A stretch of 57,069 bases of DNA from Gammaproteobacteria bacterium (lineage in GTDB: Bacteria; Pseudomonadota; Gammaproteobacteria; Pseudomonadales; Porticoccaceae), in the NCBI GenBank assembly GCA_018069465.1, contig JAGPUW010000012.1, positions 1 to 57,069 on the forward strand, given 5' to 3'. The translations under genes and the position numbers were made by a program. Each line of letters begins with the position of its first letter. Within the stretch, counting starts at the first letter, position 1. Below are positions 44,883 to 57,069 of this stretch, piece after piece. Below the pieces are notes generated by a model, which saw only the letters and a program-made list of their open reading frames with translations, did no database searches and was not told the origin of the DNA.

Positions 44883-46136
44883 CTAGCCATTATTCAGCCT
44901 TTTCTGTAACGCCGTCGAATAAGCGGATATTGCGGGAATCAGACTGGTTACCATTGCACTTACTACAATGACCAGAAGTAGATACATAATATTTTTATCG
45001 AAAACGTTGGCGCTAATAGAAAGGTTAAAGTTGTCGGTGAGAAAGCCGCGAAGAGATAGTAAGCATATGAATAGCAGTGATAGTGCAAATACAGAGCTTG
45101 CTAGCGTTATCAGTAGAGCTTCAGTTTGAATTAATAAAAATAAGAACGATGGAGATGCCCCCAGTGAGCGCATGATGGCAATTTCCCGTTGCCTCTCCCG
45201 AATGGATGTCAGCAACATAGCACTTAATCCCAGTAAGGAGGCGAGTAATACCAGCGCTGATACTAGCATGAGGGTATTTTCCATTATCGCCATCATTTGC
45301 CACAGCTGGGTTAACGTGACGCCAGGCAGGATGGCCAACAATGGCTCTGGTTGGTAGTTGTTAATCGCCCGTTGTACGCGGAAGGTTGCCATTTTTGACT
45401 TCAGCCCTACCATAAAAGCGGTAATGGTTTTTGGGGTAAGGTCGTAATGCTCTACATCATCGGGTGCTATGGCGTGTCCGGGCGTTTTTACGCCGTTCTG
45501 CCAGTCAATGTGTATGGCTTCGATACCGCGTAAACTGACATGTACTGTCTGATCGACAGGTGTGCCGGTAGGTTTAAGGATGCCGACAACGCGAAACGGT
45601 TTGTCGTCGTGCTGACTGAAGCTGGTGCTGGCCACGCCGTGGGCAAGCACCAGGTGGTCATCTAATTGATAGTTTAATTTACGCGCTACATCGGCACCTA
45701 GGACCACATCAAAAACTGAGGCGAAGGCCTTGCCTTGAGTGAATCTCAGCGCCTGTATCTGGCCATAGCGAAAGTATTTGAAGTAGTCGCTTGTCGTCCC
45801 CATCACTCGGTAGCCCTTGTGTGAGTCGCCGAGCGATAGGGGTATCGTCCAGGCGACCTCCTGTTTTTCAGCGACTTCCCGATAGCTTGCCCATGCGATG
45901 TTGTTGGTCGCATTGCCAAGCTGGAATACGGCGTAGAGCAAAAGGTTGATGTCACCCGTGCGGGCACCCACAATCAGGTCGACGCCAGATACGGTATTGC
46001 TAAAGCTGAATTTGGCCTGCTGACGAATATGCTCGATACCTAGAAGCACAAAAATGCTGACTGATATAGCCAGAAATGTCAGTACGACTGATCCCTTACG
46101 GCTCAATAAACTGTGCCAAGCTAAGCGGATAAACAT
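44883..46136 (-). CDS. FtsX/MacB-type ABC transporter permease (ZrgC-like)
   Basis: 417 residues with one N-terminal helix (KGSVVLTFLAISVSIFVLLG), a large periplasmic region (about residues 45-270) and three C-terminal helices, the FtsX/LolC layout; the motif SIRERQREIAIMRSLGA is typical. Its start overlaps the stop of the ATPase gene (TGATG). By recollection, Vibrio cholerae has a Zur-regulated zrg operon combining a DUF2796 protein, an ABC pair and further proteins; this gene would be its permease. Zinc import is inferred, since FtsX-type permeases otherwise handle lipoproteins or drugs. Confidence 0.85.
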   Translation of the reverse strand: MFIRLAWHSLLSRKGSVVLTFLAISVSIFVLLGIEHIRQQAKFSFSNTVSGVDLIVGARTGDINLLLYAVFQLGNATNNIAWASYREVAEKQEVAWTIPLSLGDSHKGYRVMGTTSDYFKYFRYGQIQALRFTQGKAFASVFDVVLGADVARKLNYQLDDHLVLAHGVASTSFSQHDDKPFRVVGILKPTGTPVDQTVHVSLRGIEAIHIDWQNGVKTPGHAIAPDDVEHYDLTPKTITAFMVGLKSKMATFRVQRAINNYQPEPLLAILPGVTLTQLWQMMAIMENTLMLVSALVLLASLLGLSAMLLTSIRERQREIAIMRSLGASPSFLFLLIQTEALLITLASSVFALSLLFICLLSLRGFLTDNFNLSISANVFDKNIMYLLLVIVVSAMVTSLIPAISAYSTALQKRLNNG

Positions 46137-46816
46137 CAGTGATGACCCCCAGCTGTATTGATTGCCTGCAAGGAAACTGTTCGCGAAAAGTACCTGGCAA
46201 GTGATTGGTCATGGCTAACGAAAATCAGCGTTATATTGTGTTGCCTTACGATCTCCATAAGTAAAGTCATAAATGCGTCACGGTTCTGGCTGTCCAGCGC
46301 GGAGGTTGGCTCGTCGACGATCAATAGTTCCGGTGTATTAATCAGTGAACGGGCGATAGCGACACGTTGCTGCTGTCCTATGCTCAGAGAAGAGGCAGGT
46401 TGGTGATGTAAAGCTGCATTAATACCCAGCGCCCGGAGCAATTCTTTCGCTTGTGAATCGGTATTTTTACGGAAGGGGAAGCCAGAGAAATGGTTGGCGA
46501 GACGGATATTGTCTAATACTGAGAGATAGTGAATAAGGTTGAATTGCTGGAAAACAAAACCGATATGGTGGGCGCGAAATTTATCTCTTTGGCGACCTGA
46601 CATCCGATCAAGCGACTGATCGAGTATGTTAATACTACCCTCCGTTGCGGCTAGAATGCCGGCCAACAGATTTAGCAGAGTGGATTTCCCCGAACCGGAG
46701 GGGCCGTGGAGAAAAATATGCTCACCTGTTGTTACTGACCATTCGGGAATTTTGAGTATAGGGTTATCGTTTGCTCGGCCATAGGCGAATTGTAAGTTGT
46801 GTATCGATACTGTCAC
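46136..46816 (-). CDS. ABC transporter ATP-binding protein (LolD/MacB-type, ZrgB-like)
   Basis: 226 residues. Walker A GPSGSGKSTLLN, Q-loop FVFQQFNLIHYLSV, signature SLSIGQQQRVAIARSL, Walker B LLIVDEPTSALD and the H-loop FVSHD are all intact. The start is GTG at 46816 with GAGG upstream. It is translationally coupled to the permease. Its promoter faces the Zur-box-like site at 46857, shared with the divergent DUF3299 gene, so it is likely derepressed when zinc is scarce. Confidence 0.92.
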   Translation of the reverse strand: MTVSIHNLQFAYGRANDNPILKIPEWSVTTGEHIFLHGPSGSGKSTLLNLLAGILAATEGSINILDQSLDRMSGRQRDKFRAHHIGFVFQQFNLIHYLSVLDNIRLANHFSGFPFRKNTDSQAKELLRALGINAALHHQPASSLSIGQQQRVAIARSLINTPELLIVDEPTSALDSQNRDAFMTLLMEIVRQHNITLIFVSHDQSLARYFSRTVSLQAINTAGGHH

Positions 46817-46856
46817 CCAAGCTTACCTCTAGATAATTTTATATTGGCATAAATTT

Positions 46857-46873
46857 GTGATATATCATATCAT
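46857..46873. promoter_or_regulatory. Zur-box-like operator between divergent ABC and DUF3299 genes
   Basis: GTGATATATCATATCAT, an inverted repeat TGATAT-ATC-ATATCA. It is identical at 15 of 17 positions to the site at 56500. It lies 41 bases from the ATPase start and 47 from the DUF3299 start, so one bound dimer could control both. Assignment to Zur rests on the two copies flanking a cluster that encodes Zur. Confidence 0.75.
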
Positions 46874-46919
46874 AAATTTTTTCGATAGCATCGCTTGCAA
46901 AGTACTATGAGGATTCGGC

Positions 46920-47594
46920 TTGCTATTATTCACCCATAAATTAAGGACTTGCACAGGCTTATTGATGCTGCTGTGTGGGATTGTTATGACCGCCAGTTTC
47001 TCTGAAGCGCGAGGCGATGACAGTATCGTCTCATCCGTTACAGCCGATATTTCCAGTGAAGTTAAACCTGTTGACGTAAACAGGGTTTCAAATAAAACTG
47101 CGGAGAAGTACCGAACCATCGAATGGCCTGAATTGATGCCGGAAGATGATCTGGGCGCAATTATGAATCCGCCGGATTTTCTTGATGACATTATCGATGG
47201 TTCAGTCGAAGATCAGATTGGCAATCAGGTGCAAAGCGCAATTGCCGCTGCCGCTGATAACCGTTATCAGCAGGCGTTGGAATCGACTCGTGTGGTCGCG
47301 GAATTTAATAATCAGTCTGTGCGAATTCCGGGTTTTATTGTGCCCTTAGAACTTGATGGTGACCAAGCGATCACTCGATTTTTTCTGGTTCCTTATTTTG
47401 GTGCCTGTATTCATGTGCCGCCACCACCGCCCAATCAAATTATTTATGCGTCGTACCCAAAAGGTTTTAAACTCAAAGCGCTTTACGATCCTTTTTGGAT
47501 TACCGGCGTGCTTAAAACCTCCTTAACTGAAAACGATACGACGACGTCAGCCTATTCTATTGTGGTTGATTCCATACAGCCGTATATGCCCTAG
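46920..47594 (+). CDS. Exported DUF3299 protein
   Basis: 224 residues. Start TTG 46920 with GAGG seven bases upstream; a signal peptide follows (LRTCTGLLMLLCGIVMTASF). The C-terminal half is DUF3299: VRIPGFIVPLELDGDQAITR, FLVPYFGACIHVPPPPPNQI and DPFWITGVLK, with a conserved single Cys-His pair. It is periplasmic. DUF3299 proteins lie next to FtsX/LolD-type ABC pairs in zinc-regulated loci; the role may be in metal or envelope handling. It is divergent from the ABC genes and shares their Zur-like operator. Confidence 0.82.
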   Translation: MLLFTHKLRTCTGLLMLLCGIVMTASFSEARGDDSIVSSVTADISSEVKPVDVNRVSNKTAEKYRTIEWPELMPEDDLGAIMNPPDFLDDIIDGSVEDQIGNQVQSAIAAAADNRYQQALESTRVVAEFNNQSVRIPGFIVPLELDGDQAITRFFLVPYFGACIHVPPPPPNQIIYASYPKGFKLKALYDPFWITGVLKTSLTENDTTTSAYSIVVDSIQPYMP

Positions 47595-47613
47595 GGATTT
47601 CCTACCATTAATG

Positions 47614-47752
47614 GAGACCTTTGCACGAGAGCCATTTTGCTCCCATGCTGCGTTAAAAAAGTGCTCAATCGGTCATTTACACGTGTAAATTTCCTCTCTG
47701 CGCGCTTTTTTGCCTTGCCTGAAATCAAAATCATCTCTCGTGCAAAGGCCTC
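47614..47752. repeat. MITE with 18-bp inverted repeats and 5-bp target duplication
   Basis: 139 bp with ends GAGACCTTTGCACGAGAG and inverted CTCTCGTGCAAAGGCCTC (17 of 18 match). The flanks are TAATG at 47609-47613 and 47753-47757. An internal perfect palindrome ATTTACACGTGTAAAT is present. There is no coding capacity, so a transposase would have to act in trans. It lies in the palindrome CCATTAATGG between convergent genes and touches the stop codon of the COG0523 gene. Confidence 0.88.
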
Positions 47753-48765
47753 TAATGGTTTAAACAAGATAAAAAATTCTGTTCAAGGTCATTGAGCGGC
47801 TCATTAGTCATGGCAATGCATTCAATGCGGCTGTCCATAGCATCATCAATCTCGATTTCCGTCAGTACGTTGTCCGCCTTGTTGTAAGCGATAACGCCTT
47901 GGTCGGTAATAAATACGCCCTTAACGCGTTCGGCGTTAATACCCGTCAATATTTCATACAGTTTATTTCGATTAAAGATAAATGTCGGTTTGAATATCCA
48001 GCCCTGACTGTGCAACCCTTCTCCTTGATTGTTGATGCTAAGGTATCCACAGGGGGGGAGCTCAGGGTTGCTACTAAAGGAGCTCTCTATTGATTCGGTT
48101 ATAGGATGATTATGATTATGCCCGTCGTAGTTTGAGGGGGGCTGCAGCCATGCTGGTTGGAGCTGCCCCATGCTGAGCTGATGCACTGGTTTATTGTTCA
48201 GCCACTGCTTGTTTTCAAGGTATTCCAGTAGCGCGGGAAAATCGTTGGATTGGTATTGGTCGGCTTTGTTGGCGACAATGACATCGGCGATTTCCAGTTG
48301 TTGGTTAAAGGTATCATGGTCAGTGTAGCGTTCGATCTGCACTTTCCGCGCATCAACCAAAGTGAGAGTCGCGCGTAGGTCGAGAACACTGCGGTAGTGC
48401 TCGGCGCGTAGTGCATCCAGCACTTCTTTGGGGTGACCAAGCCCCGTTGGTTCAATCAACAAACGCTGTGGTCTGGCACGGGCGAGCAACATATTTAGTG
48501 CTACCTGCATCGGTAAACCTGCAGCGCAACACATACAGCCACCGGGCACCTCTCGTATATAAATACCTTGATCTTCTTTATTTGTTCCATAGAACAGGCT
48601 TCCGTCAATACCCACTTCGCCAAATTCATTGACCAATACTGCCCAGCGCTCATCGGCGGGTTTTTGCTTGAGTAGATGCAAAATGGCGGTTGTTTTACCG
48701 ACGCCCAGAAACCCGGTGATAATATTGGTGGGTACTGACAGAATCGCTTGTTTATCGGAGTTCAT
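47752..48765 (-). CDS. COG0523-family GTPase, zinc-linked metallochaperone
   Basis: 337 residues from ATG 48765 (MNSDKQAIL), overlapping the carbonic anhydrase gene by 14 bases; longer frames are rejected. Walker A GFLGVGKTT is at residues about 17-25, the metal-binding GGCMCC (CxCC) at about 80, the guanine-specificity NKAD at about 150, and a His-rich stretch NYDGHNHNHP. The C-terminal CobW_C domain is present. These proteins deliver zinc to client enzymes under shortage. Last gene of the zinc operon; its TAG stop is formed at the MITE junction. Confidence 0.92.
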   Translation of the reverse strand: MNSDKQAILSVPTNIITGFLGVGKTTAILHLLKQKPADERWAVLVNEFGEVGIDGSLFYGTNKEDQGIYIREVPGGCMCCAAGLPMQVALNMLLARARPQRLLIEPTGLGHPKEVLDALRAEHYRSVLDLRATLTLVDARKVQIERYTDHDTFNQQLEIADVIVANKADQYQSNDFPALLEYLENKQWLNNKPVHQLSMGQLQPAWLQPPSNYDGHNHNHPITESIESSFSSNPELPPCGYLSINNQGEGLHSQGWIFKPTFIFNRNKLYEILTGINAERVKGVFITDQGVIAYNKADNVLTEIEIDDAMDSRIECIAMTNEPLNDLEQNFLSCLNH

Positions 48766-49315
48766 TGGCCAACCTTTTATACCCTTGGACGAGTTCATGA
48801 TTGGCACTGACCACCGATTCAGAAAAGCTGGCGTATTCTGGTGGTACCTTCTCAATGGCATTAAGATCAAAACCGGGGCCAATGTTGGTCATTGGCGGAA
48901 CATGAAAGTTTTGAGGTAAATCCATGCCATCAATGACGCTGTTGTGTCTGATAACACAGCCGTTGCCGATGCTGGTTTGAAAAACCACGCTGTTAAAACC
49001 AATAAACACGTCGTCCCCCACCGAGCAAGGGCCATGAACGATAGAGCGATGAGCAATGGATGTGCGTTCACCAATGGACACTGCTGCACCTGATTTTGAA
49101 TGGATAACTACGCCATCTTGAATGTTGGTATCACGTTTAATTGTTATAGGTTCCATCTCGCCTGATTCATCAACTTCGTCGGCACGAATAACGGCATAGG
49201 GGCCAATGAACACATTGTCCTGAACGATTACTTTTCCACAGATAATCGCGGTAGGGTCTATGAAAGCACTTTCCGCAACTCTAGGTATGTGGCCGTTTGG
49301 ATTCTTTCGTAACAT
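48752..49315 (-). CDS. Gamma-class carbonic anhydrase-like protein (CamH-like)
   Basis: 187 residues with left-handed beta-helix hexapeptide repeats (AIICGKVIVQDNVFIGPYAV then IRADE). The zinc histidines are visible: VVIHSK and SIAHRSIVHG. There is a C-terminal helix (ESVVSANHELVQGYKRLANE). It would hydrate CO2, perhaps with a metal other than zinc, as an alternate enzyme during zinc shortage. It sits in the zinc operon directly before the COG0523 GTPase, a possible client-chaperone pair. Confidence 0.88.
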   Translation of the reverse strand: MLRKNPNGHIPRVAESAFIDPTAIICGKVIVQDNVFIGPYAVIRADEVDESGEMEPITIKRDTNIQDGVVIHSKSGAAVSIGERTSIAHRSIVHGPCSVGDDVFIGFNSVVFQTSIGNGCVIRHNSVIDGMDLPQNFHVPPMTNIGPGFDLNAIEKVPPEYASFSESVVSANHELVQGYKRLANELR

Positions 49316-49460
49316 AGATATTCCTTGTTTATGAATTTAGTTGTTTTGTAATAAGGTTTGGGCTTGCTTGAACCATGGTAGAGTTTTAATGCGTTGTTGC
49401 TGGCCATAAAGTTTGAGAAATTATTGAGTCGTGTAATCATGCTAGCTGTTTAAGGCATTG

Positions 49461-49646
49461 CTATAGACACTGTCCACAACACTTTTTAAATTTACGACCG
49501 TTGCCGCATGGACAAGGGTCATTTCGCCCAACTTTTGGTTCTGTGCGTGCAATGGGTATTGGTGGAGTGCAGCAATTTGTGTTGCTACAACGGGATTCAA
49601 TATTTTTTGCCTGTTCTTGCTTGAGTGTTTTAATTCCATTAGGCAT
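49461..49646 (-). CDS. SEC-C zinc-motif small protein
   Basis: 61 residues ending in [21 protein letters not shown], the SEC-C metal-binding motif (CxC...CC), plus an upstream CSNTNCC. Similar small SEC-C/SWIM-like proteins recur in Zur-controlled clusters; they may bind or buffer zinc. Of two overlapping frames (this and 49442-49639) only this one carries the motif. It lies 15 bases after folE2. A 145-base gap before the carbonic anhydrase gene contains no convincing coding. Confidence 0.8.
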
Positions 49647-49661
49647 TAAATTGTTATCTCA

Positions 49662-50564
49662 TTACGGGTTATATTTTTGGTCGATCACTACGGCATTGTG
49701 GGCATGCAGGCTTTCTTGATGCTCCACTTTAAACCTGTAGTCTTTAATCCATGCTGATTGCTCTAGCAAAGCTTTGATATTTCGCGCGGCATCCTCGCAG
49801 AACATCAGATTATTAGCATTTAAGCGGGCAAACTCCTGCTCATCCGTGCGTTTAACCATAGTTTGTACAGGTGTGCCAATGGCTTCTTCAATCTGCATAA
49901 TAAGTGATGGAAGAGGCGGCCAGTGGTGATTGCCCAGCGATAAATGCAAGTAGGCATAAGAGCGCTGACTATGCGGTGTGGCGACCGTAGCCGTATGCGC
50001 CCATGACAGCAGTGCCTGTTTATCAATACTCGACGTTGAAAACTCATTGTCTATGGCGTTGGCAACTAATTGGCGCGACAGTGCTGCTGAACAAGGGCAA
50101 GTACTTGAATAGGGAATGGTTAGTTTCAGTCCGTAATCGTGCTTGTCGTATAACAATTCGCTCTGTATTTCGATAGGGTAGGTTTGATACCCCGTTTCGT
50201 TGCTGAGTAGCGATGTCTTTGGCAGTAGCAAGTCAAATGTTAGATCAAGCTTTGCGTTTCGGCTGATTCCTTCTTGAGAGGTAACCATATTTTTCAGTAG
50301 CAAGTCGAGACCAGCTTTGTCGCAAACCTGGGTGGCAAGCTGATTGAGAATGGCATGCAAGCGTGACATATGAATGCCTTTTTCGGTTGCCTCATCAAGG
50401 CTGACATAGACATTGGCTTTTGCAGTAACCGACTGCTGTTTTCCACCACCGACATTAAGGGTGAGTGGAACGGCAATATTTTCCATGCCTACCCACTGCA
50501 AGGGGTAATTAGCGGTTTCAGTGCGGGTCTTGGCAATATCAGGTAACACTTTGACTGCTTGCAT
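49662..50564 (-). CDS. folE2: GTP cyclohydrolase FolE2 (type IB)
   Basis: 300 residues. The family opening PDIAKTRTETANYPLQWVGM, and the metal-site cysteine region SSTCPCSAALSRQLV, are present, with RSYAYLHLSLGN later. FolE2 makes 7,8-dihydroneopterin triphosphate for folate and, unlike FolE (IA), is not strictly zinc-dependent, using Mn or Fe. Known Zur regulons carry folE2 as a backup for FolE. It sits in the zinc operon between dihydroorotase and SEC-C genes. Confidence 0.95.
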   Translation of the reverse strand: MQAVKVLPDIAKTRTETANYPLQWVGMENIAVPLTLNVGGGKQQSVTAKANVYVSLDEATEKGIHMSRLHAILNQLATQVCDKAGLDLLLKNMVTSQEGISRNAKLDLTFDLLLPKTSLLSNETGYQTYPIEIQSELLYDKHDYGLKLTIPYSSTCPCSAALSRQLVANAIDNEFSTSSIDKQALLSWAHTATVATPHSQRSYAYLHLSLGNHHWPPLPSLIMQIEEAIGTPVQTMVKRTDEQEFARLNANNLMFCEDAARNIKALLEQSAWIKDYRFKVEHQESLHAHNAVVIDQKYNP

Positions 50565-50617
50565 TTAATGTCCTTTTGAATATAAAGATGATTGATACAG
50601 GCTTAAACAGTTGATGC

Positions 50618-51952
50618 TTATCGAGCAAAGGCAAGTGGTCTGGCAAATAATTTTCCAGAGAATTTACCATCACTGCTAAAAACCCTCTGACCATTTACCC
50701 AGGTGCTATTAATTTGTGAAGAAAACACTTGTCCTGCAAAGGGAGTCCAACCACAGAGATATAAACTATTCTCGTGCGTTACAGTTGTGGATGATTGGCT
50801 GTCGATAAGAACCAAATCCGCATAATAACCCTCGCGGATAAACCCGCGTTCAGTGATGGCATACCTTAGTGCTGGATTGTGCGCGGTTTTTTCAACGATC
50901 TGGGTTAGGCTGAGCCGCCCATGTTTCACATGCTCCAATAAACTTAATAGTGCATGCTGTACCAGTGGCAACCCGGCGGGGGCTTGATCATAATCGACCT
51001 TCTTTTCTGCCAAGGTATGGGGCGCATGATCTGTTGCAATAATGTCGATTTGGTTGGTGTGCAGTGCATTAATCAGCGCGTCCCGGTCACTCTGGCTTTT
51101 TATCGATGGGTTGCACTTAATTAAATTGCCCAAACGTACGTAGTCTTGGTCGCTAAACCATAAATGGTGAACACAGGCTTCGGCCGTAATAGGTTTTTTT
51201 TCTATGGGGCCAGGTTCAAATAAACTCAATTCTTTTTCAGTGGTGATATGCAATACATGCAATTGGCTGCCGTGCTGTTTGGCCAAGCCCACGGCATAGG
51301 AAGAAGAAGCAAAGCAGGCATTGGTATCTCTGAGTTTGGGATGGTCTTCAATAGCCAGCACTGTTTTTGAGCGAAGGAGTGCTTCTCGATTTTTGTGAAT
51401 AACCGGGCCGTTTTCGCAATGAGTAACGATAAGCACAGGAGATTCACGAAAAATGGCATCAAGTGCCTGAGGAGCTTCAACCAATAAATCACCGGTTGAT
51501 GCGCCCATAAACACTTTTACACCACAGTGCTTTTTAGGATCGAGTCGCTTAATTTGTTCGAGATTTTCTTCGGTTGCTCCCAGGTAGAACCCATAGTTGG
51601 CATAGGATCGTTCAGCGGCAATGGCGTATTTTTGGTCGAGTGCCTTAATGGTTGTTGTGGCCGGATTGACATTCGGCATTTCCATATAGCTGGTGATACC
51701 GCCAGCAACAGCAGCTCGGGATTCGCTGGCAATTGTTCCTTTGTGGGTAAGGCCTGGCTCGCGAAAATGAACTTGATCGTCAATCATTCCGGGAAGTAGA
51801 TGGTATCCACCTGCTTCGACAATAGTGTCCTGCGGCTGTGCGTTTATACATTTCTCGATTTTATCTATTCGTTGATCCTTGATGCGTAAATCCGCCTCGA
51901 TCACGCGCCCCTCATTCACTAATCGGGCATTTTTTATTAATGTGCAGGGCAT
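50618..51952 (-). CDS. pyrC: Dihydroorotase paralog (amidohydrolase class)
   Basis: 444 residues. Metal-binding features are IDDQVHFREPG (the first His of the usual HxH is Gln), the lysine in GVKVFMGASTG that is carboxylated in the family, VTHCE, VLHITTEKE and the catalytic Asp in ATDHAPH. It closes carbamoyl-aspartate to dihydroorotate in pyrimidine synthesis. The Gln variant may alter metal load. It starts two bases after the hisI stop and is presumably a backup enzyme for zinc shortage. Confidence 0.9.
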   Translation of the reverse strand: MPCTLIKNARLVNEGRVIEADLRIKDQRIDKIEKCINAQPQDTIVEAGGYHLLPGMIDDQVHFREPGLTHKGTIASESRAAVAGGITSYMEMPNVNPATTTIKALDQKYAIAAERSYANYGFYLGATEENLEQIKRLDPKKHCGVKVFMGASTGDLLVEAPQALDAIFRESPVLIVTHCENGPVIHKNREALLRSKTVLAIEDHPKLRDTNACFASSSYAVGLAKQHGSQLHVLHITTEKELSLFEPGPIEKKPITAEACVHHLWFSDQDYVRLGNLIKCNPSIKSQSDRDALINALHTNQIDIIATDHAPHTLAEKKVDYDQAPAGLPLVQHALLSLLEHVKHGRLSLTQIVEKTAHNPALRYAITERGFIREGYYADLVLIDSQSSTTVTHENSLYLCGWTPFAGQVFSSQINSTWVNGQRVFSSDGKFSGKLFARPLAFAR

Positions 51953-51954
51953 TT

Positions 51955-52374
51955 TCAGCTTTTATTCCCATCGATAAAAACCGCTTGCTGCACGGCATCC
52001 ACTTTGAGATAGAAGCAATTCGGGCGACCAGTATGGCAGGCAGCCCCAAGCTGCTGAACATCACACAGTAGGGTGTCACCGTCGCAGTCGATCTGCATAG
52101 ATTTCAGGCGCTGGTGGTGGCCGCTGGTTTCGCCTTTGCACCATAGTTGGGACCTTGAACGAGACCAGTAGGTCATGTTGCCGCTGGCAAGTGTTAGTTC
52201 AATAGCTTTCCGATTCATCCATGCCATCATTAACACATCGCGGCTGCAATGATCCTGTGCGATGACGGGGATAAGTCCCTTATCGTTATAGGCAAGGTTT
52301 TCAATAACACCGGATAGTGGATGCCGCTCCCCGTGCTCGTGTTTTTCAAAGGGGAGAAAAAAATCGTTGATCAT
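51955..52374 (-). CDS. hisI: Phosphoribosyl-AMP cyclohydrolase paralog (HisI, stand-alone)
   Basis: 139 residues from ATG 52374 ([10 protein letters not shown]), preceded by GAGGAG; a longer frame to 52413 overlaps merC-like coding. The HisI pattern is complete: [20 protein letters not shown], the acidic DCDGDTLL and [10 protein letters not shown]. The three zinc cysteines (DCD, AAC, NC spaced 16 and 7) are kept. It opens the purine ring of PR-AMP in histidine synthesis. There is no fused HisE. It is a zinc-operon paralog rather than part of a his operon. Confidence 0.92.
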
Positions 52375-52393
52375 GGTTATTCCGCTCCTCGGT

Positions 52394-52795
52394 TCAGTGA
52401 GCTTCACAGCCACACTGGAGGCGTTTACATAATGTGTGGTTCCGCAAATGGCCGAGGGCGATAAGTGATGCGCCCATTAATATTGCGATCTTCTCCCCTG
52501 TTTCCCCGAGCAGGTCATGACCCATGAAAGTTGCCAGGGTCAATATGCAGAGTCCTGTCAGCCCCATTGCCATAACGCTAAATTTCAGGTGCTGTCGGCA
52601 TCCCATTGTCAATGCGATCAGACTTGTGGGTAGCACCGCGAGCAACATCCATTGGTGGAGGCGCTCGTCTGCAAAAGTATTTGCGGCCAGCGCAGGCAAT
52701 AGGACGAAGGCGAGGGGGAGCAGCAGGCAATGCACGGTGCAAATGAGGGAAAGGCTGATGGCGACCTTGTCGATATTGATGGGTATGGATTTCAT
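52394..52795 (-). CDS. MerC-domain membrane protein
   Basis: 133 residues with four membrane helices. A cysteine-histidine motif lies in the first helix ([14 protein letters not shown]) and a Cys-rich tail [11 protein letters not shown] ends the protein. MerC proteins move mercuric ions; in this operon a role in zinc uptake is more plausible, which is inference. It has AAGGAAG before ATG 52795 and overlaps the upstream part of the hisI frame. Confidence 0.85.
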
Positions 52796-52845
52796 GCTAC
52801 TTCCTTTGGCTTGTAATGGCTTTGAGTTGTCACTTTTGAAACTGT

Positions 52846-53307
52846 TTAGGCCGGCTGCTTAGCGCAATCCTGACATAAACAATGTAATTCCAATTGCGGA
52901 CTCTTCAGTAGATAACCTGCTTGCGCAACATTACGTTTCAGAGTATCAATCAGTGTTTTTTTAATACCAATCTCCTTTACAGCGCTACATTCATCGCAGA
53001 TCAGGAACTGCGGTACTTCGTGAGCATGGTCGCAACTGATGTGAGAACAGGCCACATACTTATTGGCCAAATGCAGCTTATGCACCAGGTTTTCGCTTTC
53101 TAAAAACGCCAAAATCCGGTAGACCGACATGGGTGGAACGGATTCATTGAACTCATTCCGGTAAAAATCGGCTAATTCATAGGCTGATAAGGCTTTTTGG
53201 GACTTAAGCAAGCCGGTCAGAACGTGTTTGCGCTTTTCTGTCAGGCGCGTACCGCTGACCTTGCAGTGTTTTTCAGCGTGATCGAGGGCTTTGCTAATTT
53301 TGCTCAT
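52846..53307 (-). CDS. zur: Zinc uptake regulator Zur (Fur family)
   Basis: 153 residues. The winged-helix part (GTRLTEKRKHVLTGLLKSQK, SAYELADFY, VPPMSVYRILAFLE) is followed by the dimerisation domain with metal sites: HISCDHAHEVPQFLICDECSAV and the C-terminal CLCQDC, giving the structural CxxC...CxxC zinc. This pattern is that of Zur rather than Fur. When zinc is bound it represses uptake genes. Here it is encoded within the operon it probably controls, so it is autoregulated. Confidence 0.93.
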   Translation of the reverse strand: MSKISKALDHAEKHCKVSGTRLTEKRKHVLTGLLKSQKALSAYELADFYRNEFNESVPPMSVYRILAFLESENLVHKLHLANKYVACSHISCDHAHEVPQFLICDECSAVKEIGIKKTLIDTLKRNVAQAGYLLKSPQLELHCLCQDCAKQPA

Positions 53308-53312
53308 AGGGG

Positions 53313-53948
53313 TTACCTGAAATGGATTTCGTTGTGCTCATGGTTCAGAGTAGCTGCGCCTTGTCGGCTGTGAACAATCCATTGTATCTGCAGGGATGCA
53401 ATACTCGTAAAAACTTCATGTAGGGCGACAGTGATTGAGCGTAGCTTGTCCGGTTTTGTACAGGTGTATTGATAGCTAGCCTCTATATCCCTGTGGGAGT
53501 CGTTGTCTAAATCGTGATCTTCGTGTGAGCCCTGCTTATTATCAGCTCGCACATTTACATCGGTTTTTAGGATGGCGGAAAAATCTGTGGACTGCTGATT
53601 CAGCGTGCAGCCTCCACCATTGAGGAGAAAGAGTGCATTGGTGTTCTTCAGATTGATACGCGTGCTTTCCACCATCGCTTGTTGCTCGGGGCTGTTGGCA
53701 TTGTGCTCAAAGCCGAGCAGGTTCATCGCTGGTGAGTGCAACGCCAAAGACAGTTGGCTCGCATCAAGTACAATGTGTAATTCCGCATTACCGTGAACAT
53801 GCGGGCTCAGTGAGCCCTTATGTTCTGAGTGTATTTCCCCTTTGGGTTCGTTGCCAAACGCTAATGTGTTTATAGCGAGGGTTAATAATATTACGGCTAT
53901 GTTTTGGATAAATTGCGTCATAACGGTTGAACTCATTTTATCTATCAT
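53313..53948 (-). CDS. DUF2796 zinc-binding periplasmic protein (ZrgA-like)
   Basis: 211 residues from ATG 53948; a GTG at 53981 or ATGs at 53936/53921 are alternatives. There is a signal peptide (FIQNIAVILLTLAINTLAFG). The mature protein has PHVHGNAELHIVLD and a His/Asp stretch (GSHEDHDLDNDSHRD), and a conserved Cys pair. DUF2796/ZrgA proteins bind zinc in the periplasm and serve uptake with the Zrg ABC pair. It starts just after the receptor gene. Confidence 0.88.
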   Translation of the reverse strand: MIDKMSSTVMTQFIQNIAVILLTLAINTLAFGNEPKGEIHSEHKGSLSPHVHGNAELHIVLDASQLSLALHSPAMNLLGFEHNANSPEQQAMVESTRINLKNTNALFLLNGGGCTLNQQSTDFSAILKTDVNVRADNKQGSHEDHDLDNDSHRDIEASYQYTCTKPDKLRSITVALHEVFTSIASLQIQWIVHSRQGAATLNHEHNEIHFR

Positions 53949-53955
53949 TCGTTGT

Positions 53956-56346
53956 TTAGAACATACTGCGTATGCCGACACTGAATCCTCTGCCGGGCAA
54001 AGGTGCTCGGTCTTTTAGAAATGAAGAGTGAACGCGGGCCTCTTCATCGGTCAGATTGGTACCTTTGGCGAATATGGTGAGGTCGCCTGAGCTGCCGAAA
54101 AAGGTATAAGCCAGCTGTGCATCCATGAGCGTATAACTGTCGGTATTCGTTTCGAATGCGTCGATATCGTCCTGCTCAAAATAATGCGTTACGCCCACTT
54201 GCCCGTTCCAGCCACTGTGTCGGTAATTAAGTTGACTGCCCAAACGGAAGGGAGGGATGCGGGGTAAATTGCCGCCATCGTCCAGTTTGGCTCGAATGCT
54301 GTCGCCCCATACCGTGAGCTTAAAGGGCGTGGCGAATTGCCAGACTACCTCGGCTTCAAGGCCATAGAACGTAGCGTCGGTCTGTTCAAAGATATAGACA
54401 GGTAAATCACCGCCATGATTATGCGCTTCGGCTTCTTCTTCATGGTCAAACAATGCCTCGCTGGTATAGCCGGTATTGCGCTGGTAGTAAAAATCGCTGA
54501 CCTGGTTGTAAAACACATTGATGACAAAACCGACATCACCTTCATGTTTGCGCAGACTGAGGTCAATATTGTTGGAGACTTCCTTGTCGGCTTTGCCGGT
54601 GTAATCCAGGTGTGCGCCGTCTTCTTCCTCGTGCAGCGTAAAGAGGGCGCCGACTTCGTAGCTACCCGTACCAATATGTGGCCCAGCGGAAAACAATTCT
54701 GACGCCGTGGGTGCTCGCTGTGAATGAGTAAGAGCGACGCCGATGTTGTAACCGGGGCTAAAGTCCCACACCAATCCGGCGGACACACTGAAAGGCGTGT
54801 AATCCAGGTCGTCAAAATGCAGCAATGCGTGCCCGTGCTCCTCTTCTTCTGCGTCGTCGTGGTGGCCCTCCTCCCATTCAATTGCATCTGCCTTAAGTGA
54901 TACTTTTTCTATCCGGGCACCCAGTTGCCACAGGATATTTCCGGTGTGCTTTTCTTCCACCAGCGCTAGGGCAAAGGTATCCGTAGTTGAGGGTGGCGTG
55001 AAGGCCTCATCGCCTACGGCCTCAAAGTCAGTGGTTTTTCCTTCTATAGATAACGCACCTCGCCAACCGCTGAATTCCTGATGCAGAAAATCCATTTTTG
55101 CCTGCAAGGTTTCATTTCGAAACACGGTGCCAGTTTCGCCACTTTCAAACTCGATATGCTCGTAATCGGTATAGCCAATACGAGTATTGAGGCCGCTTAG
55201 ATACTCGTTATCAAGGGACAGCTCGCTAATCAGTTGCCAGCGATCTTGGCTTAAGTCCGAGAGTACAACTTCCTCTTCCTCATGCTCTTCTTCGTGCGCT
55301 CCTTCATCTTCTTCATGGGCATGACCAGGGACACCATTAAGCCGATCAAGGCGTCCATAGGATAAACCAATAAAACCATTGTCAAGCAACCAGCTGGCAC
55401 CGACGTTAAAGCCCTCGCTCTTGGCCGCACTGTTTTCCAGCACGCCTTTGCGGTGATCGTTGTGGCCTTCCGCTTCGTGTTCCTCATCCGTTTCTAATTC
55501 TGCAATTCCAGGGATTTTGTAGTTGCTACCATCGCGCCAAAAACCATCTATGTGCACGGCGATAGAATCATTTCCGCCGGTGTAGGCCAGTGACACTTCG
55601 TCTTCATTGGCGACAGTATTATGGGCAACAGAAAAGTCACCTTTAGCTTCACTGGAGCGAGGCACACGATCATCAACAATATTGACAACACCGCCAATGG
55701 CACCTGAGCCGTAAAACAGTGTGGCTGGGCCGCGCAGAATCTCGATTTGCTCTGCAGTACTAGCCTCAGTAGCCACGACATGATCCGGGCCCACTCTGGA
55801 GGCATCGCTAACATCTAAACCATTTTGGGTGATCAGTACTCTGGGGCCATCAAGGCCGCGAATAATCGGGCTGCTGGCGACAGGGCCGAAATAGCTGGAG
55901 TGAACACCGACTTCATTTTTGAGTGTTTCACCCAGTGTGCTGGCCTGCTTGTTGCGAAGCTCATCACCACTGATAACAGTAATAGGCAGCGCAGATTCAA
56001 TTGTTGACGCGTGCAGGGGAAGACCGATGACATCGATTTGCTCAATCACTGAGCGTTGCAGCGTTATGGTGAGCGGTGCGGCTTGTTGGCCGTGCAAATG
56101 TAAAATGCGGTGGCCGTAGCCTTTTGCTTCGATATGAATTTCATCAACGGCATCGGTGACAATTTTCACTACAAAGTGGCCATTGGTGTCGGTGGTTATA
56201 TCTTTTCGAGTGCCGATAATCTCGACACGGGCTTTGGCGACAGGGTTACCGTTATCGTCGATGACTTGTCCTGAAAAGGCATGGCTTAACCCTGATAGAC
56301 TTAATAGAGCGAGAAAAATACTTGTTCTCTTCATTTCGTAATTCAT
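53956..56346 (-). CDS. TonB-dependent outer-membrane receptor, ZnuD-like (zinc)
   Basis: 796 residues. After a signal peptide comes a carboxypeptidase-regulatory-like domain (VIDDNGNPVAKARVEI), then the plug (SALPITVISGDEL, GPATLFYGSGAIGGVVNIVD) and a 22-strand-type barrel ending in FSVGIRSMF with terminal Phe. Extracellular loops are extremely rich in His/Glu/Asp: HAHEEDEGAHEEEHEEEE, EEGHHDDAEEEEHGHALLHF and EEEAEAHNHGG. That matches ZnuD-type zinc receptors. It is the first gene of the operon and follows a Zur-like operator. Confidence 0.93.
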   Translation of the reverse strand: MNYEMKRTSIFLALLSLSGLSHAFSGQVIDDNGNPVAKARVEIIGTRKDITTDTNGHFVVKIVTDAVDEIHIEAKGYGHRILHLHGQQAAPLTITLQRSVIEQIDVIGLPLHASTIESALPITVISGDELRNKQASTLGETLKNEVGVHSSYFGPVASSPIIRGLDGPRVLITQNGLDVSDASRVGPDHVVATEASTAEQIEILRGPATLFYGSGAIGGVVNIVDDRVPRSSEAKGDFSVAHNTVANEDEVSLAYTGGNDSIAVHIDGFWRDGSNYKIPGIAELETDEEHEAEGHNDHRKGVLENSAAKSEGFNVGASWLLDNGFIGLSYGRLDRLNGVPGHAHEEDEGAHEEEHEEEEVVLSDLSQDRWQLISELSLDNEYLSGLNTRIGYTDYEHIEFESGETGTVFRNETLQAKMDFLHQEFSGWRGALSIEGKTTDFEAVGDEAFTPPSTTDTFALALVEEKHTGNILWQLGARIEKVSLKADAIEWEEGHHDDAEEEEHGHALLHFDDLDYTPFSVSAGLVWDFSPGYNIGVALTHSQRAPTASELFSAGPHIGTGSYEVGALFTLHEEEDGAHLDYTGKADKEVSNNIDLSLRKHEGDVGFVINVFYNQVSDFYYQRNTGYTSEALFDHEEEAEAHNHGGDLPVYIFEQTDATFYGLEAEVVWQFATPFKLTVWGDSIRAKLDDGGNLPRIPPFRLGSQLNYRHSGWNGQVGVTHYFEQDDIDAFETNTDSYTLMDAQLAYTFFGSSGDLTIFAKGTNLTDEEARVHSSFLKDRAPLPGRGFSVGIRSMF

Positions 56347-56499
56347 TGATCTTTCCTGTTATAGCTGTGTAGCTGTTCAATTCCTAAAAGCTTCTGTCTC
56401 TTTCTTTCTGTATTTATCAACACCAAAAGTCGCTTGACAACTGCAGTCAAAGTAGCGAGATATATTCGCAAGGGTTTATTTCTTGCTGCCAGGTAAGAC

Positions 56500-56529
56500 A
56501 TGATATATCGTATCATTAACTTTGTGCAA
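56500..56529 (-). promoter_or_regulatory. Zur-box-like operator and promoter of the zinc operon
   Basis: The box is ATGATATATCGTATCAT (56500-56516). On the minus strand TTGCAC (56529-56524) and TATATC (56507-56502) with a 16-base spacer could be the -35 and -10, so a bound repressor would cover the -10. The start of the receptor gene lies about 155 bases downstream, leaving a long leader with no evident structure. The rest of 56347-56723 has no recognised feature. Confidence 0.72.
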
Positions 56530-56723: not shown

Positions 56724-57069
56724 GGGCACCTCTAAAAATAGCCAATATATGATAAAATTCTAACCCTAATAAATTAGGAATCAAACCAATATGTCGCAGC
56801 CAGGTTTTTTTGATCTAGAAGATCGGCACAACAAATTAAGTGAAAAAGACCCGCTTTTGGCGCTTAATCATCTGATCGATTGGGAAAATTTCAGGCATAC
56901 ACTGAATAAGATTCGAGAGCTACCCCGAAAAAGTAACGCCGGACGAAAGCCGTACGATGTCGTGCTGATGTTTAAAATTCTGGTACTTCAGCATTTATAT
57001 AATTTGTCCGATGACGAATTAGAATATCAGATTCGGGATCGTTATTCGTTTTGTCGTTTTGTCGTTTTG
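56724..57069 (+). mobile_element. IS5-family insertion sequence, left part
   Basis: GGGCACCTCTAAAAATAGCC at 56724-56743 looks like the terminal inverted repeat, 47 bases before the transposase start. The element runs off the window, so the right repeat and target duplication are not visible. It lies about 200 bases from the zinc operon promoter. Confidence 0.65.
56791..57069 (+). CDS. IS5-family transposase, N-terminal part (runs off window)
   Basis: 93 codons from ATG 56791: MSQPGFFDLEDRHNKLSEKD, LIDWENFRHTL, RKSNAGRKPYDVVLMFKILV and LYNLSDDELEYQIRDR, the N-terminal domain of IS5-group transposases. The DDE catalytic domain lies beyond the edge. The last 24 bases repeat TTTTGTCG, which gives an unusual C-terminal reading (SFCRFVVL) where the family has RFLGL, possibly an assembly artefact. 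Confidence 0.88.
   Translation, partial: MSQPGFFDLEDRHNKLSEKDPLLALNHLIDWENFRHTLNKIRELPRKSNAGRKPYDVVLMFKILVLQHLYNLSDDELEYQIRDRYSFCRFVVL

Follow-up and report, generated by a model that had tools for sequence, protein, structure and literature searches.

Among described systems, certain Zur regulons and the Zrg transporters are close to the locus reported here. In the Zur regulons of Pseudomonas and Cupriavidus (Haas et al. 2009, PMC2770081), COG0523 proteins occur with paralogs of FolE2, PyrC, HisI and gamma-class carbonic anhydrase (gamma-CA), often at the same locus. Vibrio cholerae ZrgABCDE (PMC9820375) and P. aeruginosa PA4063-PA4066 (PMC10393844) each comprise a ZrgA-family protein, a MacB/FtsX-like permease, an ATPase and a small periplasmic protein. 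We analysed a stretch of 57,069 bases (the window), which is the entire contig C10 of a draft genome (3.6 Mb, 49 contigs), and which carries both kinds of genes in one island. A run of ten minus-strand genes, from 56346 down to 47752, encodes in order a TonB receptor, ZrgA, a Fur-family regulator that we call Zur2, a MerC-like protein, HisI, a dihydroorotase, FolE2, a SEC-C peptide, gamma-CA and a COG0523 protein; beyond it lie a DUF3299 gene and ABC transporter genes, which diverge from one another. Unlike the clusters of Haas et al., the island adds its own Zur paralog, MerC, a ZnuD-like receptor and ZrgA, has its other Zrg genes at a twin operator, and shares its genome with another Zur at znu; unlike ZrgABCDE and PA4063-PA4066, its Zrg genes are split, with ZrgA in the large operon and the ABC and DUF3299 genes at a second operator. 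The island belongs to a kind already known, the zinc-sparing Zur regulon. In the open literature searched we found neither a second Zur described with such an operator, a motif that the supplementary logos of Haas et al. may print, nor a MerC in a Zur regulon.

We think it probable, judging from sequence, that this is a zinc-starvation island under its own repressor, Zur2, acting at two operators, with a separate regulator, Zur1, at znuA/znuC. When zinc is adequate, zinc-loaded Zur2 dimers would occupy both ATGATAT-N3-ATATCAT operators and silence the ten-gene operon together with the divergent DUF3299 and ABC genes, and a drop in zinc would lift this repression. Zinc would then enter through the ZnuD-like receptor and the Zrg set (ZrgA, ABC, DUF3299), MerC may supply an extra membrane route, and the COG0523 protein, perhaps with the SEC-C peptide, would deliver the metal, while FolE2, the dihydroorotase and gamma-CA would replace zinc enzymes and HisI would serve as an extra copy. 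Zur1, beside znuA/znuC, would govern classical import through a classical-type box.

A search of the genome for FUR-family proteins returned three, encoded on contigs C1, C10 (Zur2) and C48 (Zur1), of which the C1 protein was the strongest match and is Fur-like. Zur1 lies beside a divergent znuA, followed by znuC, and the gap between znuA and zur1 holds TTGTTATGTTATAGCAT plus a second, weaker classical-type site. In a genome scan for ATGTTAT-N3-ATAACAT the znuA-zur1 site was among three places with two mismatches, and none was better; at up to three mismatches the classical pattern showed no excess over a backward control (68 places against 77). The island regulator is not the genome's sole Zur, and the znu-linked Zur1 has a different, classical-type box.

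Zur2 has the FUR fold (PF01475) and both zinc sites of E. coli Zur. Its residues H76, C87, H96 and E112, with two CxxC pairs, align with the zinc ligands of the E. coli protein (His77, Cys88, His96, Glu111 and two CxxC pairs; PMC4219657), and the aligned ligands are invariant in all 15 Zur2 proteins aligned. Tyr45 and Arg65, which contact bases in E. coli Zur, are matched by Y43 and R64, and the two regulators share an RNNNY-N3-RNNNY operator skeleton (PMC4219657). The system would work like a Zur regulon, Zur2 being the putative zinc-sensing repressor. Both regulators miss the NCBIfam Zur equivalog cut-off of 167 bits (Zur2 at 93.4 bits, Zur1 at 111.8 bits), and because of its score we file Zur2 outside the E. 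coli-type equivalogs; going by sequence, we prefer to call it a Zur-type regulator from a separate clade. Two further differences from E. coli Zur concern the site, in which A rather than T is the commonest base after the G of the half-site, where the E. coli consensus permits either, and which has the length of one dimer (TGATA-N5-TATCA), as against the longer two-dimer E. coli box.

Proteins scoring at least 130 bits to Zur2 (42-100% identity) were present in 73 of 293 genomes of the order. Zur1 was sought in 60 of these 73, a Zur1-type protein being defined by 46% identity or more to the C48 protein; 17 of the 60 hold one (46-63% to the C48 protein, or the C48 protein itself), and none was found in the other 43, a 38% match of 97 bits in G084 having been left out of the count. 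In a tree of 124 Zur2 and 17 Zur1 proteins with E. coli Zur, Xanthomonas Zur and the genome's own Fur, every Zur2 fell on one side of a branch with support of 100/99, apart from Zur1 and from the E. coli and Xanthomonas proteins, and every Zur1 on one side of a branch with 93/94, although the bootstrap had yet to settle completely and the placement of the E. coli and Xanthomonas proteins is unsure because of long branches. The recognition helices differ as well. Beside the key Arg stands Ala in 17 of 17 Zur1 proteins and Ile or Met in all 58 Zur2 proteins tallied, and three helix positions mostly change from Zur1 to Zur2 (P to M, T to S, and A to I or M).

The near-identical 17-bp operators that the first-pass annotation had described proved to be palindromes with 15 of 17 bases in common, the similarity around them extending to 23 nt at 87%, and they are the only places in the genome that match ATGATAT-N3-ATATCAT with at most one mismatch. 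Within the window a 19-bp version, at up to three mismatches, likewise occurs at these two operators only, where chance would give 0.02. At up to three mismatches the 17-bp pattern has 80 places genome-wide, against 37 for a backward control. Four further two-mismatch places lie on C6, C28, C29 and C39, and around the two inspected, on C6 and C28, there is no zinc gene, the surroundings being coding (by eye, an MFS transporter and a CheA-like kinase). Each operator is overlapped by a promoter-like -10 hexamer, which reads towards DUF3299 at operator 1 and towards the receptor at operator 2, in line with Pseudomonas Zur boxes, which often overlap the -10 (PMC10393844); for the ABC genes, operator 1 has no such overlap. 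These overlaps are weak evidence because shuffles give similar matches (1.0 and 1.9, against 3 and 4 promoter-like matches here).

We then asked which form the operator takes around Zur2 genes elsewhere, using 124 loci with distinct Zur2 proteins out of 141 (60 regions of 57 genomes, 80 named loci and the window), loci with identical Zur2 proteins having been dropped; near-copies may remain, and the counts are of loci, not independent events. Sites upstream of island-gene homologs were tallied with 12 positions fixed, positions 4 and 14 free and at most one mismatch, such that one locus may count more than once. The form found in the island, A4/T14, led with 47, followed by A/A (19), T/T (14), T/A (10), C/A (2) and A/C (1). 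Across 20 Markov shuffles a mean of 0.6 loci had any site and none had A4/T14. Eleven of the 17 Zur1-znuA loci had a site at up to one mismatch, none of them A4/T14, and this form was absent from all 17 up to three mismatches, appearing in five at four mismatches (whole 3.5-kb loci). At equal stringency Fisher's test on 47 of 70 Zur2 against 0 of 11 Zur1 loci gave 2.4e-5, the loci being related. Around Zur2 the two halves TGATA and TATCA occurred 81 times at a spacing of N5, 20 times at N10, 14 times at N7 and 0-7 times at other spacings; the reversed sequence gave 0. Of the 81 N5 sites, 75 fit RNNNY-N3-RNNNY, with pyrimidine/purine inner ends, as do both window sites; this is the operator rule of E. 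coli Zur (PMC4219657). A pair of overlapping dimers would suit the N10 spacing.

Across the 17 two-regulator genomes, ATGATAT-N3-ATATCAT at up to one mismatch was found at 25 places, against 2 for the backward pattern. Judged by position and by tblastn searches with the island proteins, 20 of these places are inside a Zur2 island or upstream of zigA-, zrgA- or znuD-like genes, one of these 20 (in G100) being strictly T4, and the remaining five are distributed one each in G232, G212, G145, G209 and G288. The sites in G209 and G288 each precede a peptidase gene, of M3 type by eye, and the pair looks conserved. In loci L306, L307, L309 and L315, from two related genomes, one Zur2-type site stands before a COG0523-zrgA operon, with an ABC gene beyond it in L309, and another before such a peptidase gene, which may thereby also belong to the zinc regulon.

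A number of observations weigh against a simple pairing of Zur2 with the A4 box. At up to one mismatch 54 of the 124 Zur2 loci have no site, 11 show a classical or near-classical site instead, and TGTTA-N5-TAACA, the classical form, was counted 20 times across these loci. Among the two-regulator genomes, G057 and G069 have no site at all, G145 has none at zinc genes, and in G209 and G288 the surroundings of the zur2 gene lack one. The Zur2 relative of Vibrio campbellii (L290) has a classical site, which counts against a strict motif rule. In genomes with no Zur1-type protein found (L229-L258), an A4 site at up to one mismatch stands at only 1 of 30 znuA loci, on which ground we rejected the idea that Zur2 takes over znu there; in the flanks covered by the scan, most of these znuA loci lack both box types. 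Zur2 proteins do not differ in their recognition-helix residues between classical and A4 sites, and because of this we dropped a helix residue as the explanation of the A4 motif and tie no residue to the change. Finally, A is already permitted at the changed position by the E. coli consensus (TGWNAY...; PMC4219657) and likewise by that of P. aeruginosa (GWWAY...; PMC10393844), and with consensus sequences so degenerate Zur1 may therefore bind island-type sites too.

We give a real but minority chance to the alternative that Zur1 and Zur2 bind both boxes, the A/T difference being drift and Zur2 a redundant repressor of an ordinary Zur regulon. The common RNNNY-N3-RNNNY skeleton, the degeneracy of the published consensus sequences at this base and the Zur2 loci with classical sites speak for it. 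Set against a shared regulon is the strong, genome-wide bias of the variant, which is found at none of the zur1-znu loci among its 25 places in the 17 two-regulator genomes and, as given above, appears in Zur1 loci only when four mismatches are allowed. A bolder version of the reading in which Zur2 controls the island and Zur1 znu is tentative and may well fail: Zur1 and Zur2 would be two insulated sensors, separated by a half-site shift of one base from GTTAT to GATAT that is perhaps matched in the helix, with import (znu) under one and, under the other, zinc sparing as a mobile regulon that has a set point of its own, the Zur2 module having spread across marine gammaproteobacteria and to a cyanobacterial plasmid.

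The ten-gene co-directional run and divergent unit named in the first-pass annotation were all recovered by Pfam and NCBIfam profile searches near the coordinates first given (Table 1). Within the run the junctions measure -20 to 53 nt, except for one of 145 nt between SEC-C and gamma-CA. The likely COG0523 start is the ATG at 48765, giving a 14-nt overlap with gamma-CA, and ZrgA would start at the ATG at 53936, with a GTG at 53981 as a possible alternative. An internal promoter would fit into the 145-nt gap, which speaks against one operon; the ten genes could form several transcription units, with a promoter in that gap outside Zur2 control, as might suit SEC-C and gamma-CA, which are optional modules in relatives. 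We regard this as unlikely, since all other junctions overlap or are at most 53 nt and the interval 47550-53400 has neither an operator match nor a minus-strand promoter-like match (the scan of this interval gave six promoter-like matches, all on the plus strand).

Table 1. Features of the island and their supporting matches (window positions)
Feature	Position	Strand	Basis
FtsX/MacB-like ABC permease (ZrgB-like)	44883..46136	-	Pfam FtsX + MacB_PCD; adjoins ATPase and DUF3299 in related loci
ABC ATPase (ZrgC-like)	46136..46816	-	PF00005 8e-34
Operator 1 GTGATATATCATATCAT	46857..46873	.	between divergent DUF3299 and ABC genes
DUF3299 protein (ZrgE-like), signal-peptide-like start, TTG start	46920..47594	+	PF11736 1e-47; PDB match 4hsp (hypothetical protein)
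COG0523 GTPase, CMCC motif and His-rich stretch	47752..48765	-	PF02492 6e-44
Gamma-class carbonic anhydrase	48752..49315	-	hexapeptide repeats; best NCBIfam match is carbonic anhydrase, under its cut-off
SEC-C metal-binding peptide, 61 aa	49461..49646	-	PF02810 1e-7
FolE2 (GTP cyclohydrolase IB)	49662..50564	-	NF010200 302 bits, cut-off 215
Class I dihydroorotase, DDQVHFREPG	50618..51952	-	NF006688 690 bits, cut-off 535
HisI paralog, conserved Cys present	51955..52413	-	NF000768 159 bits, cut-off 126
MerC-like membrane protein, four long predicted helices, CxxHC	52394..52795	-	PF03203 1e-25
Zur2, island Fur-family regulator	52846..53307	-	PF01475 1e-12
ZrgA (PF10986, formerly DUF2796), zinc-binding family	53313..53936	-	PF10986 3e-43; PDB PA4063 7ahw
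ZnuD-like TonB-dependent receptor	53956..56346	-	NF038289 2e-115, under strict cut-off
Operator 2 ATGATATATCGTATCAT	56500..56516	.	upstream of ten-gene run

Control of the island by Zur1, the Fur-family protein of the operon having another role (another metal, or as an anti-repressor), is improbable. Zur1 is the znu-adjacent regulator, and the island protein scores 93 against the 167-bit Zur cut-off, though Zur1 at 112 misses it too; yet islands and A4 sites occur in genomes where no Zur1-type protein was found (43 of 60 are such genomes), the island regulator keeps the zinc ligands of E. coli Zur, and a Zur2 relative on cyanobacterial plasmids lies behind an A4-type site. That the palindromes are Fur boxes and the island iron-responsive we consider very improbable and reject, since, although an outer TGATA...TATCA is common to Fur boxes and the window has 36 loose Fur-type matches (20.2 in shuffles), none of the 36, at up to three mismatches, overlaps either operator, the inner bases are Fur-type in just 2 of the 81 conserved sites, and the neighbouring genes belong to zinc families.

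The zinc starvation response is usually drawn with a single Zur per cell, and a widespread second Zur with an operator bias departs from that picture. The staging of zinc import and zinc sparing by two sensors becomes directly testable, and the pair would offer a case for how a Fur-family repressor shifts its DNA specificity by one base per half-site. Zur2 regulons could be annotated in many marine genomes, some of them labelled SAR92 clade, and a zinc role is predicted for a MerC-family protein.

The first-pass proposal of an island for zinc starvation, controlled through Zur-type operators and combining zinc uptake and delivery with substitute enzymes, is supported. Housekeeping-type folE and hisI lie on C21 and an E. 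coli-type pyrC on C43, and because these ordinary copies exist elsewhere, FolE2, HisI and the dihydroorotase of the island are second copies and not, as the first-pass annotation had allowed they might be, the housekeeping genes; on these three the island qualifies as a zinc-sparing Zur regulon. In the dihydroorotase motif DDQVHFREPG, Gln replaces the first His of HxH, the usual dihydroorotase metal motif. The closest solved structure, 2gwn, presumably from Porphyromonas gingivalis, has identical motif letters. The island HisI retains the conserved Cys residues in alignment. Both enzymes agree with the description of other Zur regulons, in which PyrC paralogs lack the zinc ligands and HisI paralogs retain them (PMC2770081).

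Among the predicted uptake and delivery proteins several fall under strict family cut-offs. The receptor scores 386.9 bits against an NCBIfam ZnuD cut-off of 950 and is ZnuD-like, not filed as ZnuD, and ZrgA passes Pfam and misses its NCBIfam cut-off (96 of 185 bits). At 62 bits against the ZigA cut-off of 600, the COG0523 protein belongs by sequence to another subgroup than ZigA. The Zrg zinc ABC set is complete (ZrgA, permease, ATPase and periplasmic partner), the DUF3299 protein being the likely counterpart of ZrgE/PA4066, with a match to the solved hypothetical protein 4hsp.

MerC proteins of mercury resistance have membrane helices and Cys residues near the N-terminus and at the C-terminus. 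The island protein shares with them the family match (PF03203), four long predicted helices and Cys at both places; it differs from mercury MerC in that its family has CxxHC and invariant His47 and His69 and partners a zinc regulator, and we recognised no mer operon gene in the island. An alignment of 56 MerC-like proteins (55 adjacent to Zur2 in related loci, plus that of the window) has C19, H22, C23, H47 and H69 in 56 of 56, C66 in 55 and C123 in 54, and the invariant CxxHC, His47 and His69 suggest a zinc-handling branch of the MerC family. Because of these residues, and because in 58 of the 124 loci the gene comes next after that of the regulator, it is plausible, by guilt of association, that this is a zinc-handling membrane protein. 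An AlphaFold model from a 28-row alignment reached a pLDDT of 79 and a pTM of 0.58 and had no PDB match at E <= 0.001, so we draw no mechanism from the fold.

A single unit containing both zur and a MerC-like gene had at first been thought unusual. That was overstated, because the island core recurs in many marine gammaproteobacteria: MerC lies within 400 bp after Zur2 in 58 of 124 loci, and ZrgA within 400 bp before it in 43. Within 9 kb of Zur2 we counted COG0523 in 72 loci, MerC in 65, DUF3299 in 52, the ATPase and ZrgA in 51 each, the permease in 49, HisI in 29, the TonB receptor in 28, FolE2 in 12, SEC-C in 11, the dihydroorotase in 9 and gamma-CA in 6, several loci being cut by contig ends. 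The window is among the fullest versions of the island.

Relatives of Zur2 also occur further afield. On plasmids pREC1 and pREC2 of the cyanobacterium Acaryochloris marina (L288 and L289; typed conjugative), zigA is followed by a Zur2 relative of 56-57% identity; ATGATACGATGTATCAT, 88 bp before zigA, has the A4/T14 form with two mismatches, and some 390 bp before zigA, in the direction of a Fur-family gene that diverges from it, there is a classical-type site. The module lies near other Fur-family genes and a metallothionein. The Vibrio campbellii record L290 (2 Mb, named a plasmid) combines its Zur2 (49% identity) with a dihydroorotase, gamma-CA and COG0523; its gamma-CA is 81% identical to that of the window, and its Zur2 only 49%.

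Two elements adjoin the island genes. Between the convergent COG0523 and DUF3299 genes lies a 139-bp element (47614-47752) with 18-bp terminal inverted repeats (94%), one edge of which extends to the stop codon of COG0523; it resembles a small transposable element, and the 14-bp core of its repeat had no exact match among the other fetched loci. Directly upstream of the island, at 56791-57069, the start of a transposase open reading frame, which we take to be IS5-like, runs off the end of the contig.

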